A stretch of 64,000 nucleotides of DNA from Sphingobacteriales bacterium UTBCD1. GTDB taxonomy: Bacteria > Bacteroidota > Bacteroidia > Chitinophagales > Chitinophagaceae. Location of the stretch: positions 1 through 64,000 of the forward strand of contig MWTC01000052.1 in NCBI GenBank assembly GCA_002066995.1. Reading direction: 5' to 3'. This document shows positions 9,442 to 53,050 of this stretch, piece after piece. Position 1 is the stretch's first letter, and every line of letters begins with the position of its first letter. A model generated the notes under the pieces. That model saw only the letters and a program-made list of their open reading frames with translations. It made no database searches and was not told the DNA's origin. A program made the position numbers and the translations under genes.

Positions 9442-10353
9442 ATGAGCGTTCCTCTTTGGGGTGTTGATCTTGGCGGAACGAAAATTGAAGCTGTCATACT
9501 CAGATCTTTTGACAACCCCGCCCCTATAATCAGAAAAAGAATAGACACAAATGCCGTAATGGGCTATGGCCATATCCTGAAACAAATTGATACGTTGATT
9601 GGGGTGATGAAAAAAGAATCCGGAATGACTCCGCAACAAATCGGGTTCGGCACACCCGGCGTTTTGGACCCGCAGTCACAAACAATGAAAAACTGTAACA
9701 CAACTTCTTTAAACGGGAGACCGTTGAAAAAAGATCTCGAAAGCCTGTTACGGGTACCTGCCATTATTGCAAACGATGCCAATTGTTTTGCCCTTGCCGA
9801 AACACACTGGGGAATAGTTAAACAAAAGTTTCTTTCCGCCTCTGTTGTCTTCGGCATCATCATGGGTTCGGGGGTGGGTGGCGGAATCGTATTAAACGGT
9901 AAAGTGTGGAACGGCCGCCATGGTATTGCCGGAGAATGGGGCCACAATTTTTTAGATGAATCCGGCGGGCCTTGTTATTGCGGAAAAAAGGGCTGCGTGG
10001 AAACGATAATTTCAGGAACCGCATTGCAAAAATTTTATGCCGGCATTACCGGGGAAAACATCCCCCTGAAAGAAATAGTAAACCGTTCTGCACAGCATGA
10101 TGGAGCGGCCCTCCGCACTGTGGATCGGTTACAATATTTTTTTGGTAAAGCCGTCTCCGTGGTGATTAACCTGGTTGACCCGGATGTGATCGTTGTGGGG
10201 GGTGGCGTCGGAAATATTGATTCAATTTATAAAGAAGGGGTGGTGTCGCTAAAAAAATTTATTTTCAATAACAGGGTTGAAGTGCCGATCATAAAACCCG
10301 CTCTTGGTGACAGCGCCGGCGTATTCGGTGCAGCAGCATTAACGGCAACGTAA
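9442..10353 (+). CDS. ROK family sugar kinase
   Basis: A 303-residue sugar kinase of the ROK family. It has the N-terminal phosphate motif GVDLGGTKIEAV, IANDANCFALAE (catalytic Asp), the glycine-rich IMGSGVGGGIV and GEWGHNFLDESG, and the zinc cluster CYCGKKGCVE characteristic of ROK proteins. No N-terminal helix-turn-helix is present, so it is an enzyme and not a repressor. Sugar specificity cannot be read; glucose, fructose, N-acetylglucosamine or N-acetylmannosamine are all possible. Its position between kdsB and a KdnB homologue may be chance or may point to an envelope-sugar role. Confidence 0.88.
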   Translation: MSVPLWGVDLGGTKIEAVILRSFDNPAPIIRKRIDTNAVMGYGHILKQIDTLIGVMKKESGMTPQQIGFGTPGVLDPQSQTMKNCNTTSLNGRPLKKDLESLLRVPAIIANDANCFALAETHWGIVKQKFLSASVVFGIIMGSGVGGGIVLNGKVWNGRHGIAGEWGHNFLDESGGPCYCGKKGCVETIISGTALQKFYAGITGENIPLKEIVNRSAQHDGAALRTVDRLQYFFGKAVSVVINLVDPDVIVVGGGVGNIDSIYKEGVVSLKKFIFNNRVEVPIIKPALGDSAGVFGAAALTAT

Positions 10354-10386
10354 TCCGTGGTTTAAATTATTAGATAGTGAATTGTT

Positions 10387-10394
10387 TACATTTG
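10387..10394 (+). promoter_or_regulatory. Candidate -7 promoter box upstream of the KdnB-like gene
   Basis: TACATTTG matches TAnnTTTG exactly and lies 27 bases before ATG at 10422. No clear TTG sits at the expected -33 distance. If used, it supports the downstream ATG start over GTG at 10377. Confidence 0.35.
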
Positions 10395-10421
10395 TGGCAA
10401 AAATTTTTGAAAAATATAAAT

Positions 10422-11495
10422 ATGAAATTCCGCAACTTTAAAATGGTGGGCTTTGTGGTTTATGGCCGTGGTTGTTTTGATCAGTTAGATGAAATCCTGG
10501 CACCACACAGGAAGAACAATGTGCCGATGGTCTTTTTATTGGATCATTTTTTTCAAGATAAACCGCTGGTACGGCGTATTCCACTTTGCGGTAATGACGA
10601 GATCATTTTTGCCGACGTAACTTATGAACCCAAAACTTCTTATGTAGATAAACTGGCGCAACAGCTGAAAGAAAAATTTGGAACCGTAAGCGGTATCGTT
10701 GGTGTCGGCGGTGGCAGCACCATGGATCTTGCCAAAGCCGTTTCACTAATGATGAATAACCCCGGCTCCTCAGCCGACTATCAGGGTTGGGATCTTGTTA
10801 AACATCCGGGCGTATATAAAGCAGGTGTCCCTACACTCAGCGGTACCGGCGCTGAAGTTTCAAGAACCTGTGTGCTTACGGGCCCGGTCAGGAAGCTGGG
10901 AATGAATTCCGACTTCACCCCTTTTGACCAGATCGTCCTGGATCCTGAATTAACGGCCAATGTTCCTGCCAATCAAAGATTCTATACCGGCATGGACTGT
11001 TACATTCATTGCATTGAAAGCCTGAACGGCACATACCTGAATGAATTCAGTAAATCTTATGGTGAAAAAGCGCTGCAGCTTTGCCAGAAAATTTTTGTAG
11101 AAAAAAATTCCTGGGATGATGACTGTGATAATAAACTCATGATGGCGTCATACGCAGGGGGAATGAGCATCGCCTATTCACAGGTGGGCGTGGCGCATGC
11201 GGTGAGTTATGGATTAAGTTATTTATTGGGAACCAAACATGGTATCGGAAATTGTATCGTGTTTGACAAGCTGGAAGAGTATTATCCCGAAGGGGTAAAA
11301 GAGTTCAAATACATGGTGGAAAAAAATAAAATTGACATTCCGCAACAAATTACCAAAGGACTAAGCGATGAACAATTTGATACCATGATCAATGTTTCCA
11401 TGGGAATGAAACCGCTGTGGGAAAATGCTTTGGGAAAGGACTGGGAGAAAATTATGACAAGGGAGCGGCTGAGAAAATTGTTTGAGCGTTTATGA
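10422..11495 (+). CDS. kdnB: Iron-containing alcohol dehydrogenase, KdnB-like (Kdo 8-oxidase)
   Basis: The product belongs to the iron-dependent alcohol dehydrogenase family: GVGGGSTMDLAKAV (NAD(P) binding), VPTLSGTGAEVSRT, and metal ligands from DCYIHCIES, AHAVSYGLSYLLGTKHGIGN. KdnB of Shewanella oxidises the 8-OH of Kdo, the first step to 8-amino-Kdo; the short family type, together with a nearby kdsB, makes this the best guess. The partner aminotransferase KdnA is not in the window. ATG at 10422 was preferred over GTG at 10377 because residues MKFRNFKMVGFVVYGRG match a normal N-terminus. The stop overlaps a 57-codon frame (ATGA). Confidence 0.75.
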   Translation: MKFRNFKMVGFVVYGRGCFDQLDEILAPHRKNNVPMVFLLDHFFQDKPLVRRIPLCGNDEIIFADVTYEPKTSYVDKLAQQLKEKFGTVSGIVGVGGGSTMDLAKAVSLMMNNPGSSADYQGWDLVKHPGVYKAGVPTLSGTGAEVSRTCVLTGPVRKLGMNSDFTPFDQIVLDPELTANVPANQRFYTGMDCYIHCIESLNGTYLNEFSKSYGEKALQLCQKIFVEKNSWDDDCDNKLMMASYAGGMSIAYSQVGVAHAVSYGLSYLLGTKHGIGNCIVFDKLEEYYPEGVKEFKYMVEKNKIDIPQQITKGLSDEQFDTMINVSMGMKPLWENALGKDWEKIMTRERLRKLFERL

Positions 11496-26131: not shown

Positions 26132-26231
26132 GCCTCCGGATTCAAAAGAAAAAACATTTAGCTTTTGGATTTCCTATTTCACAAATACAACCTTATTTTT
26201 GCTGCCCGCAATTACGGCGGAAAATGAAAGA

Positions 26232-26316
26232 GGGACGATGTCCCCGGGGGTAGAGCAAAGGACTGAAAATCCCCGTCCGACCGTTTCGTACGGGCGGGCA
26301 TATATCGGCGGTTCGA
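26232..26316 (+). pseudogene. Damaged tRNA-Phe copy carrying an inserted GC-rich repeat
   Basis: Bases 26249-26272 are identical over 24 nt to 26393-26416 of the intact tRNA-Phe (D-arm end, anticodon arm with GAA). TCGGCGGTTCGA at 26305-26316 equals the T-arm start at 26422-26433. Between the two blocks the intact tRNA has 5 nt but this copy has 32 nt, containing a GC-rich element (26273-26299). The first 25 nt match the tRNA 5' half only in part (about 16 of 25), and the 3' half of the T-arm and acceptor strand are missing. It cannot fold as a tRNA. Confidence 0.75.
26273..26299 (-). repeat. Dispersed 27-30 bp GC-rich repeat, copy A (in the tRNA-Phe remnant)
   Basis: On the plus strand this reads GTCCG-ACC-GTTTC-GT followed by ACGGGCGGGC. 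The same elements in the same order occur on the minus strand at 52713-52742 inside mnmH. Not a tRNA part; see findings. Confidence 0.55.
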
Positions 26317-26375: not shown

Positions 26376-26448
26376 GGTGCGGTAGCTCAGTTGGTAGAGC
26401 AAAGGACTGAAAATCCTTGTGTCGGCGGTTCGATTCCGCCCCACACCA
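26376..26448 (+). tRNA. tRNA-Phe (anticodon GAA)
   Basis: The 73-nt cloverleaf has a D-arm (GCTC/GAGC), anticodon stem AAGGA/TCCTT with loop CTGAAAA and GAA at 26409-26411, and T-arm GGCGG-TTCGATT-CCGCC. The acceptor stem GGTGCGG/CCACACC pairs except for a C-A mismatch at position 5-68. Discriminator A at 26448; CCA is not encoded. A TATTTTTG box at 26194-26201 could be the promoter but precedes the damaged copy at 26232. Confidence 0.93.
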
Positions 26449-26457
26449 CAACTTTAA

Positions 26458-50709: not shown

Positions 50710-51915
50710 TTACTTTTTTCGCCGGAGGATTATCGCAGCATTGGTTTGCAGGTCAGCACTGAAACGAACCTGGTAGGCATTATCTCCATCATGAATTACC
50801 AATAACCCGGTATTGGGAGGATATTTTCCGAGATTTTCTGCATAAAGAACAATGACAACAGAGTCGCCCATGTCAGGTGTGATATAAACAGTCCTTTTGA
50901 TAGCGGAAGCTTTCAGGCATTCTTTGGCAATGATGAGATTTCCGTTTAACAAAACACTGACCGTATCCCCATCAATTTCCCCGTTATCATACAATGACAA
51001 TTCAAGGCTGTCAGATTTGATGAATACAGTTGGAGAAAAAACGGACGATCTTTCATTCACCAGCGCTGCAGGTCCATTGTTAATGACAACAGGGCTGTTA
51101 GCGGTTGTCAATTCACCTGATTGAACAGGGTTTGCCTTTTTGAGCTCGGGCTTATTCACTGCCACCGGGTTTTCTTTATTTCTCTGTGCCGGCTTTGCCG
51201 GTTCAACAGGTTGTTCTGTTTGTGAGGAAATCCTTTTTTTCAGATCATTACTGCTGTTCACTATATTTTTATCAGGGAGGTCCGCAGGCTTTTGCTTTTT
51301 TACAACAACTTTTGATAAATCCTCTGTTTTTGAATTGTCGCGTTGATTTTTTATTGCGGGGAAATTTACCGGGTTTTCTTCTTTGTAAAAAGCAACATCA
51401 TCTGCAAGTTTCAGCTCTTCAAGATGCGGAAAAATTTTTGACTGGCTGAGATCTTTTTCTTCTTTGAGTGTGATGCCGCCGGAGATTGAGTAAAAATTTT
51501 TTGTTTTATTGGTTTTCCATGTTCCATCGAGATGCCAGACGCTATCTTGTTTGTTCATTCTGAAGATGCTGGTCATTTTGACTCCTTTATCAAGCTTTCC
51601 GCGGAAATTATAAGAAATGATTTCTTCGTCTTTTACTTCACATATATCACCGTCAATAGTACCTTTTACTCTTTTCAGGATGTAATAGAGTGTATCACCC
51701 ACAATGAATTCGCTACGTGAGTAGCCATACACTTTTCCACGGTATTCCGTCAGCGCTATTTCGAAAGTTTGTTCTTTACGGGTAGTTGTGCTGTCATTAC
51801 TCAGAGCGCCTGTCCATAAACCGGTGAGCTGTTTCTGACCCCAAAAAACAGCCGGGAACAAAATACATACAATCAGTTTAACTGACTTCTGAATGATATT
51901 GGCGTAAGGAGACAA
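50710..51915 (-). CDS. Secreted hypothetical protein between mnmH and selD
   Basis: A 401-residue protein with a signal peptide (KSVKLIVCILFPAVFWGQ). Residues ~25-150 form a lipocalin-like/beta-rich domain (LTGLWTGALSNDSTTT, YYILKRVKGTIDGDICEV). A low-complexity Lys/Asn/Pro linker spans ~170-290. C-terminal residues ~300-401 are a beta-sandwich with LSLYDNGEIDGDTVSVLLNG and the following VYITPDMGD, recurring in Bacteroidota surface proteins. Start ATG overlaps the mnmH end by 38 bases, suggesting co-translation. Function unknown. Confidence 0.75.
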   Translation of the reverse strand: MSPYANIIQKSVKLIVCILFPAVFWGQKQLTGLWTGALSNDSTTTRKEQTFEIALTEYRGKVYGYSRSEFIVGDTLYYILKRVKGTIDGDICEVKDEEIISYNFRGKLDKGVKMTSIFRMNKQDSVWHLDGTWKTNKTKNFYSISGGITLKEEKDLSQSKIFPHLEELKLADDVAFYKEENPVNFPAIKNQRDNSKTEDLSKVVVKKQKPADLPDKNIVNSSNDLKKRISSQTEQPVEPAKPAQRNKENPVAVNKPELKKANPVQSGELTTANSPVVINNGPAALVNERSSVFSPTVFIKSDSLELSLYDNGEIDGDTVSVLLNGNLIIAKECLKASAIKRTVYITPDMGDSVVIVLYAENLGKYPPNTGLLVIHDGDNAYQVRFSADLQTNAAIILRRKK

Positions 51916-53050
51916 GTTTATCGGCGTTTTCTATAGTTACTGAATCGCAATTTATTTCATATAATAACGAATTAATTTCTTCCCGATTGTGTAAGGCTTT
52001 TAGATAATGCTTGTCATAATATTGAAGCAATATCCTGAAGCATTCTGAAATATTTCCATCTATAAGAAACTGAGCAGCATTTTTTGCATTCAAACCGCCC
52101 AGGCGATCCCGTATTCTTCCTATAGCCTCCGCCATTTTTTTCCTGTCTAAAGAGCCATATTCGTGAACAAGCTGCTTCAAACGTTCTTCAAAAGGGATTT
52201 TTATAAAATATACGGGGGAACGACGCATGGTATTCCATAGATCATTTGGCAGATTGACAAGCCCGATGCGCTGACTTTCATCTTCGAGCCATATCAATGA
52301 ATAATGAATACCGGCTGCTGAGGTTTTACATTCTTTCACTGACTTTTTTCGCAGTTCCTGTGCAAGCAGATTTTCAAACATCTCCTGTCCCGGTTGTTCA
52401 TGCATATCAATGTTTCCGAACGCCGAGCCTTTATGTTTTGCTGTTTCTTCGAGATTAATTACGGTTTCTCCCCTTTTTTCCAATTCTTTGATCAACGCTG
52501 TTTTTCCGGTACCAGTAAAGCCTCCTAAAATTTTAAAATGAAAAGGAATCTCAAAAGTTTCAAGCACATGATGCCTGAATTTTTTGTATCCTCCTGCCAG
52601 AGTGAATACTTTGAAGCCATACAGATCCATCAGCCAGGCGACGGCTGCACTCCGCATTCCACCCCGCCAGCAATAAATGAGGATCAGTCGTGAGCCCGGA
52701 GCCATGAGACCAGCCCGCCCGTCAGGCAAACAGGTTGCGGACTCGATTTCTTCAATCATTTTCCTCATTTTAGGACCAAAAGAGTCCAATGCAATTTTTA
52801 TTGCGGCGCCACGGCTTTTTTGTTTATAGGCAGTGCCAACAGCTTTTCTTTCTTCATCAGTGAACAGGGGTAAATTATATGCTCCGGGAATATGTGCATG
52901 CTTGTATTCTGAAGGGGAACGAACATCAATTAAAAGATGTTTTTTCGAAAGCCCGAGAAATTGTTCAATATGTATTTTTTCAACTGGCAAGAACCGGGAA
53001 TAAAATGATTTGATTGAAGGTACTTGATTTTGAAAAAAAGAGCCCGCCAA
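51878..53050 (-). CDS. mnmH: tRNA 2-selenouridine/geranyl-2-thiouridine synthase MnmH
   Basis: A 390-residue protein with N-terminal rhodanese domain (LLIDVRSPSEYKHAHIPGA; catalytic Cys127 in LILIYCWRGGMRS) and a P-loop domain (LGGFTGTGKTALIKEL). It replaces 2-thio with selenium at U34 using selenophosphate from SelD. Residues ~104-120 (ATCLPDGRAGLMAPGS) are an insertion relative to what the rhodanese loop usually needs; the DNA of the insertion (52713-52742) matches a repeat found in a tRNA-Phe remnant at 26273-26299. Confidence 0.94.
   Translation of the reverse strand: MAGSFFQNQVPSIKSFYSRFLPVEKIHIEQFLGLSKKHLLIDVRSPSEYKHAHIPGAYNLPLFTDEERKAVGTAYKQKSRGAAIKIALDSFGPKMRKMIEEIESATCLPDGRAGLMAPGSRLILIYCWRGGMRSAAVAWLMDLYGFKVFTLAGGYKKFRHHVLETFEIPFHFKILGGFTGTGKTALIKELEKRGETVINLEETAKHKGSAFGNIDMHEQPGQEMFENLLAQELRKKSVKECKTSAAGIHYSLIWLEDESQRIGLVNLPNDLWNTMRRSPVYFIKIPFEERLKQLVHEYGSLDRKKMAEAIGRIRDRLGGLNAKNAAQFLIDGNISECFRILLQYYDKHYLKALHNREEINSLLYEINCDSVTIENADKLVSLRQYHSEVS
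52713..52742 (+). repeat. Dispersed 27-30 bp GC-rich repeat, copy B (inside mnmH)
   Basis: On the minus strand this is GTCCG-CA-ACC-TG-TTT-GCCTG-ACGGGCGGGC, in frame with mnmH, encoding TCLPDGRA. Copy A at 26273-26299 has GTCCG-ACC-GTTT-C-GT-ACGGGCGGGC. The shared blocks appear in the same order. Confidence 0.6.

Follow-up and report, generated by a model that had tools for sequence, protein, structure and literature searches.

What has placed the same ten bases, ACGGGCGGGC, both in a copy of a tRNA gene and in the coding sequence of mnmH, within one 64,000-nucleotide stretch of Sphingobacteriales bacterium UTBCD1 DNA (hereafter, the window)? The original prediction, which located this decamer correctly at 26290-26299 on the forward strand and at 52713-52722 on the reverse strand, held that the two sites carry one and the same repeat. 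It was also right that the first decamer lies within an incomplete duplicate of the tRNA-Phe gene, the intact gene being at 26376-26449, and that the second is in frame within mnmH (51878-53050, reverse strand), slightly before the catalytic Cys127. The repeat itself, described as the blocks GTCCG, ACC, TTT and ACGGGCGGGC of 26273-26299 and 52713-52742, did not survive the analysis. We rejected ACGGGCGGGC as a repeat: it is present in four copies in the 3.76-Mb genome, versus ten for the reversed pattern, and both remaining copies are unrelated sequence from which the upstream blocks are absent. Since GTCCG and ACC fall outside the 21-bp unit found in mnmH, the shared block order is a coincidence or, at best, the trace of a distant kinship.

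Both sites nonetheless hold members of genuine families of short palindromes, and the prediction had merged two different things: the insert in the tRNA copy is a 27-bp element of what we call family 1, and that in mnmH is a 21-bp element of family 2/3 (Table 1). A scarcity of other copies, which had been named as evidence against a repeat, is what was found for ACGGGCGGGC but not for the true families, which occupy two places (family 1) and about 14 places (family 2/3) in this genome. We therefore conclude that the two sites are probably independent insertions of two families of tiny GC-rich palindromes, which behave like miniature non-autonomous mobile DNA of Bacteroidota. Both families are repeated, dispersed and palindromic, their units are whole numbers of codons, and they are absent from orthologues or paralogues. 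Where an empty site is available, in LysS and the histidine kinases, exact units are seen with no target-site duplication, and the window copies in mnmH and in the tRNA copy fit the same 21- and 27-bp units.

Table 1. Positions in the window of the two inserts, their hosts and neighbouring features.
Feature	Position	Strand	Basis or remark
Family-1 element, 27 bp, CCCGTCCGACCGTTTCGTACGGGCGGG	26272..26298	+	1 mismatch to family-1 pattern; removal restores tRNA length
Family-1 element, alternative ends	26273-26299		Equally possible, as one base is repeated at the ends
Partial tRNA-Phe copy, decayed, D-arm to T-arm, split by family-1 element	26249..26316	+	Sequence identity to intact gene
tRNA-Phe(GAA), intact	26376..26449	+	ARAGORN; Rfam RF00005, 71.1 bits
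Motif ACCTTATTTTTGCTGCCCGC, kept upstream of tRNA-Phe in relatives	26190..26209	+	Comparison with relatives
Family-2/3 element, 21 bp, TTTGCCTGACGGGCGGGCTGG; gives MnmH its residues 108-114, LPDGRAG	52710..52730	-	Pattern match and length versus G002
mnmH, tRNA 2-selenouridine synthase, host gene	51878..53050	-	NCBIfam NF008750 and TIGR03167, above cut-off
Host sequence with GTCCG and ACC blocks, not element	52731..52742	-	Outside the 21-bp unit

Family 1 has the 27-bp (nine-codon) consensus CCCGTCCGACCGGGTCATCCGGGCGGG, whose terminal C is partly imposed by the search pattern and whose usual reading is ARPDDPVGR. BLAST of the tRNA region against relatives unexpectedly returned several matches to the insert alone, all copies of CCCCGTCCGACCGGGTCATCCGGGCGGGC. 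With up to three mismatches allowed, the family-1 pattern has matches in 13 of 101 genomes, a count that includes this genome (the genomes sampled being one per species), and its reversed control in none. The second copy in this genome, at C30:50913-50941, is in frame, as ARTDDAAGRG, within a peptidase-like protein of 945 residues. Named genomes hold family 1 in at least 119 stretches; among the matches listed these belong mostly to Chitinophagaceae, Sphingobacteriales and other Bacteroidota, but also to Scalindua, another Planctomycetota MAG, Yanofskybacteria and Nomurabacteria. The loci seen outside Bacteroidota include L282 (Candidatus Yanofskybacteria), L332 (Candidatus Nomurabacteria), and L252, L277 and L312 (Scalindua), and reflect either horizontal spread or mis-binned contigs.

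The proteins struck by family 1 include RlmN, RsmH, histidine kinases and UvrA. The histidine kinases are the most informative, as genome G031 contains an array of 17 paralogues, five of which have an insert of the ARPDDPVGR type, at two different sites, while nearly all of the remaining paralogues are gapless there. Comparison of inserted and gapless paralogues thus gives an insert of nine codons with nothing duplicated. The array is itself dense, its approximately 17 paralogues lying at L116-L118 (G031:C1:1980001-2040000). At L324, the loop of a family-2 palindrome contains a family-1 element (EEDLPT-ARPDDPVGR-GQAGK), and the unit is again 27 bp. The family-1 DNA hairpin is moderate (-8.9 kcal/mol, z -1.9).

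Family 2/3 is 21 bp (seven codons) long, CCYGCCTGNCSGNCRGGCAGG, and reads LPAGQAG or PPDGRAG. It is present in roughly one third of relatives, with control matches almost nil. A pattern built around the mnmH insert and similar palindromes gave about 150 matches in 35 of the 101 genomes and none for controls; one based on CCCGCCTGACGGACGGGCAGG gave about 95 against five for the control, with mnmH included at two mismatches; and the exact 21-mer is found in 24 of 296 genomes sampled across the phylum (control, 0). Here, as for family 1, copy numbers obtained with such patterns are lower bounds, because the patterns are short and mismatch-limited. In this genome, in-frame copies lie in lysS (NLPAGQAGK), argH (FPPDGRAGK) and cca (DLPAGQAGY), with two more in adenine deaminase and others in several further ORFs. 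The adenine deaminase copies (L183, G000:C15:113100-118100, at 2520 and 2569) are family-2 elements 49 bp apart, within a repeated GGTGAGAAGTGAG-like flank, and are read in two different frames. Elsewhere in the genome, at L140 (G000:C30:100001-120000, about 9771-10747, reverse strand), a longer and apparently intergenic repeat, GCTCTGCGAGGCATCCTGCCTCGCAGCATTATTTTATCGC..., recurs six times at intervals of about 130-320 bp.

The clean empty site of family 2/3 is in lysS. This genome and its closest relative, G002, have GAAGAAAA-CCTGCCTGCCGGTCAGGCAGG-GAAAACA, with one base different in G002, and thus exactly 21 bp extra, whereas LysS of the same-genus genomes G001 and G003 is shorter at this point by exactly seven residues; in 20 further relatives the gaps here are of 6 to 12 residues. 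The DNA hairpin of family 2 is strong (-8.6 kcal/mol, z -3.9). Of the 38 family-2/3 copies in ORFs, a set with a few chance matches and two pairs of orthologues in it, 30 are in the LPAGQA phase; more distant genomes show a less marked preference (9, 6 and 2 copies by phase). In two genomes, at L429 (G246) and L481 (G385), a prolyl-tRNA synthetase-like protein carries a family-3 element at an identical codon position (LKT-RLPDGQ-VDET), in a frame that is not the usual one.

How do these families compare with known systems? RPE are palindromic elements of 105-146 bp, found in frame in many conserved Rickettsia protein genes (Ogata et al. 2000, 2002, reviewed in PMC2229807) and also in RNA genes, namely those for tmRNA and M1 RNA (PMC2229807). 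The resemblance is close in kind, as the original prediction had supposed in likening the inserts to palindromic elements that add in-frame peptides: here too, palindromic repeats lie in frame in conserved protein genes, the same sequence is found in several unrelated ones, orthologues or paralogues lacking exactly the insert exist for LysS and the histidine kinases, and one window copy is in an RNA gene copy. The differences are that the present families are 21 or 27 bp, outside the RPE size, belong to Bacteroidota, and are unrelated to RPE in sequence. Bacterial MITEs such as ERIC, RUP and NEMIS measure about 100-200 bp, end in inverted repeats and are often bordered by duplications of the target (PMC2229807). 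The present families are likewise small non-autonomous repeats, at times in genes and fused to proteins, but they are only 21 or 27 bp, and target duplication is absent at the LysS and histidine-kinase empty sites.

CGTC REPs are closer in size, being short single hairpins, also found inside ORFs, with no dedicated transposase and with Bacteroidetes among their phyla; their marks are an unpaired CGTC tag at the end, a stem that opens with AT pairs, and a CCA-like tail (PMC3733652). The present families share with them the short single hairpin, the location within ORFs and the lack of a link to a transposase gene, but as a rule the tag, the AT stem start and the CCA-like tail are absent, and we do not count them as members. 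CGTCATT precedes five of 127 family-1 copies, all five in one Bacteroidales MAG. At L301, L302, L310 and L326 (one Bacteroidales MAG), family-1-like copies follow GACTGCGTCATT, a CGTC-REP-type end; these copies could possibly form a bridge to CGTC REPs, through distant kinship.

GTAG REPs are dispersed palindromes of 20-40 bp, some of them within uvrA, tRNA synthetase genes and other ORFs, that are associated with RAYT transposases (PMC2817692, PMC3733652, PMC6006769). The present elements are also short dispersed palindromes, some in just such ORFs, and could in principle be REP sequences of the classical type, moved by a RAYT (Y1 transposase) that is encoded by a gene with these palindromes on its flanks. 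PF01797 matches are present in 13 of the 16 genomes searched. IS200-type chemistry is consistent with single hairpins that leave no target duplication, and the present elements are compatible with it. We nevertheless find this explanation unlikely. None of 30 PF01797 loci has an adjoining family-1 or family-2 element, the sole nearby one, at L340, being about 700 bp off, and these Y1-transposase loci identified no mobilising enzyme for either family; G002 has copies yet no PF01797 match; and the conserved GTAG is missing, with a GTAG-like match near an end in only three of the 127 family-1 copies. The families also differ from GTAG REPs in their low copy number, in that many copies are intragenic, and in that they do not flank Y1-transposase genes. 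Full-text literature on the elements' peptides and on Bacteroidota palindromes yielded RPE, REP and MITE papers but no description of these families, with thin coverage of subscription papers. The kind of element is already known, and these families are provisionally new as far as the literature was searched.

Is the MnmH segment a true member of family 2/3? The original prediction saw an insertion here, and extra residues do exist, as MnmH is seven residues longer than its G002 counterpart over the whole protein; those gained, however, are LPDGRAG and not TCLPDGRA. Our initial view was that TCLPDGRA is mere linker variation, and this was revised once the 21-bp unit emerged. Removal of 52710-52730 leaves MIEEIESATCLMAPGSRLILIYC, equal in length to MVEEISTLATLRQESPEPLFIYC of G002. 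The insert has two mismatches to the CCCGCCTGACGGACGGGCAGG-based pattern and three to the general family-2/3 pattern. As the pattern with about 150 matches used mnmH letters, a separate test was made with the general one: at up to three mismatches in 464 kb of this genome, it matched mnmH and one true copy only, and its reversed, complemented and 12 shuffled versions matched nothing in the same 464 kb (the samples for such pattern tests were these 464 kb and 400 kb of G031). BLAST of the mnmH stretch against its own genome gave chance matches only, because the copies are too short.

It could be argued that the only element is in the tRNA copy and that the mnmH segment is ordinary linker drift resembling family 2/3 by chance. 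Relatives differ greatly in how long the linker is at this point, the mnmH copy has diverged, differing from the nearest exact family member at five of 21 positions, and its DNA hairpin is weak (-3.1 kcal/mol, z -0.7). Yet control patterns never match so well in 464 kb, and exactly seven residues were gained relative to G002, in the frame used by other family-2/3 copies. We thus regard drift as rather improbable, and prefer insertion of a family-2/3 element. Given how widely the linker length varies, tolerance of the insert is to be expected. LPDGRAG lies at a predicted flexible loop (residues 109-119, pLDDT <50), which connects a helix to the strand toward Cys127, and the insert is probably an old tolerated copy that has no function itself.

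The insert in the tRNA copy has one mismatch to the family-1 pattern, which when reversed has no match in 101 genomes, and the unit length, 27 bp, is taken from the nested copy at L324 and from the histidine-kinase paralogues. On its two sides the element is bordered by 24 nt and 12 nt that match the intact tRNA-Phe exactly. Minus the 27 bp, the copy is GGTAGAGCAAAGGACTGAAAATCC-ATATA-TCGGCGGTTCGA and the intact gene is GGTAGAGCAAAGGACTGAAAATCC-TTGTG-TCGGCGGTTCGA, of equal length. The recQ--tRNA-Phe order is kept in the genus, and the extra tRNA copy, which sits between the upstream motif and the intact gene, is found in this genome only. That motif, which also precedes tRNA-Phe in relatives and resembles the Bacteroidota -7 box, would likely be the promoter of the tRNA unit. 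Neither ARAGORN nor Rfam recognised the partial copy as a tRNA. The original prediction was thus right to place an element within an RNA gene copy, but the copy in question has decayed and the intact tRNA-Phe lies next to it, so that no functional RNA is interrupted. Near 60 family-1 loci, tRNA genes are present at L270 only, and neither is interrupted there.

Might the inserts be functional, as selected peptides or regulatory hairpins, and not selfish DNA? The frame preference is strong: the family-1 consensus is stop-free in all six frames, and ARPDDPVGR is nonetheless the frame of 39 of the 53 copies in long ORFs (p 9e-20 versus 1/6, with some copies sharing ancestry). Many targets are housekeeping proteins, and the same UvrA linker was struck in two species. 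On the other hand, the targets are unrelated proteins, insert-free orthologues or paralogues are the rule, 65 of 118 family-1 copies lie outside any long ORF, and the two UvrA inserts are in different reading frames, so that selected function appears very unlikely. The UvrA inserts, of L244 (Sphingobacteriales bacterium 41-5) and L329 (Agriterribacter humi), both lie directly past the signature motif and, since they are read in different frames, are probably independent. Least credible of all is a single repeat family at both window sites with GTCCG, ACC, TTT and ACGGGCGGGC as its conserved blocks: the decamer is common to both, and families 1 and 3 share CCCGTCCG and GGCGGG after reverse-complementing one of them, so that distant kinship is possible, but the units differ in length (27 versus 21 bp), the peptides differ, in mnmH the GTCCG and ACC blocks belong to the host, and the decamer is not enriched.

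If the two sites are independent insertions of two palindromic families, how would such elements move? From the empty sites, the nested copy and the near-identical copies in different genera, we infer that they have moved in the past; no copy was seen to be polymorphic within a species among the genomes compared, one per species. We propose that the elements travel in single-stranded hairpin form and are mobilised by a trans-acting enzyme whose gene lies elsewhere. The simplest candidate would be an HUH/IS200-type transposase, as its chemistry agrees with the hairpins and with the absence of duplications. Purifying selection would then keep insertions only in tolerant loops, in disposable DNA such as a duplicated tRNA, or between genes. 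Copies in genes do mostly use one frame, that of ARPDDPVGR or LPAGQAG, adding nine or seven residues, and the tRNA copy would represent insertion into a duplicate that was already dispensable. The flanks of the elements have no conserved motif, and a preference for loops of older palindromes is not apparent, as there was no excess flank complementarity (mean 2.29 versus 2.29 shuffled) and the nested copy at L324 is a single case. A phage vehicle was considered and rejected: among 2.9 million contigs, one viral contig has family 1 and 28 stretches have the family-2 21-mer, the latter mostly in other frames. As a broader and more tentative proposal, related codon-sized (21 and 27 bp) mobile palindromes may have spread in Bacteroidota, and occasionally in Planctomycetota or candidate phyla, by some hairpin-specific enzyme, with their length, stop-free frames and favoured frame being adaptations of a selfish element to essential genes.

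Selfish palindromes that survive in conserved protein genes have so far been a matter mainly of Rickettsia and of some REP-bearing species. The families described here are among the smallest of the kind. Their units are exact multiples of a codon, and they belong to a large phylum in which Niabella, Niastella, Agriterribacter and Lacibacter are cultured genera. As their carriers include lysS, argH, rlmN, rsmH and uvrA, they would explain lineage-specific insertions of seven or nine residues that otherwise resemble protein evolution. The pairs of orthologues and paralogues with and without the insert make it testable which enzyme moves the elements and whether the added peptides are neutral.
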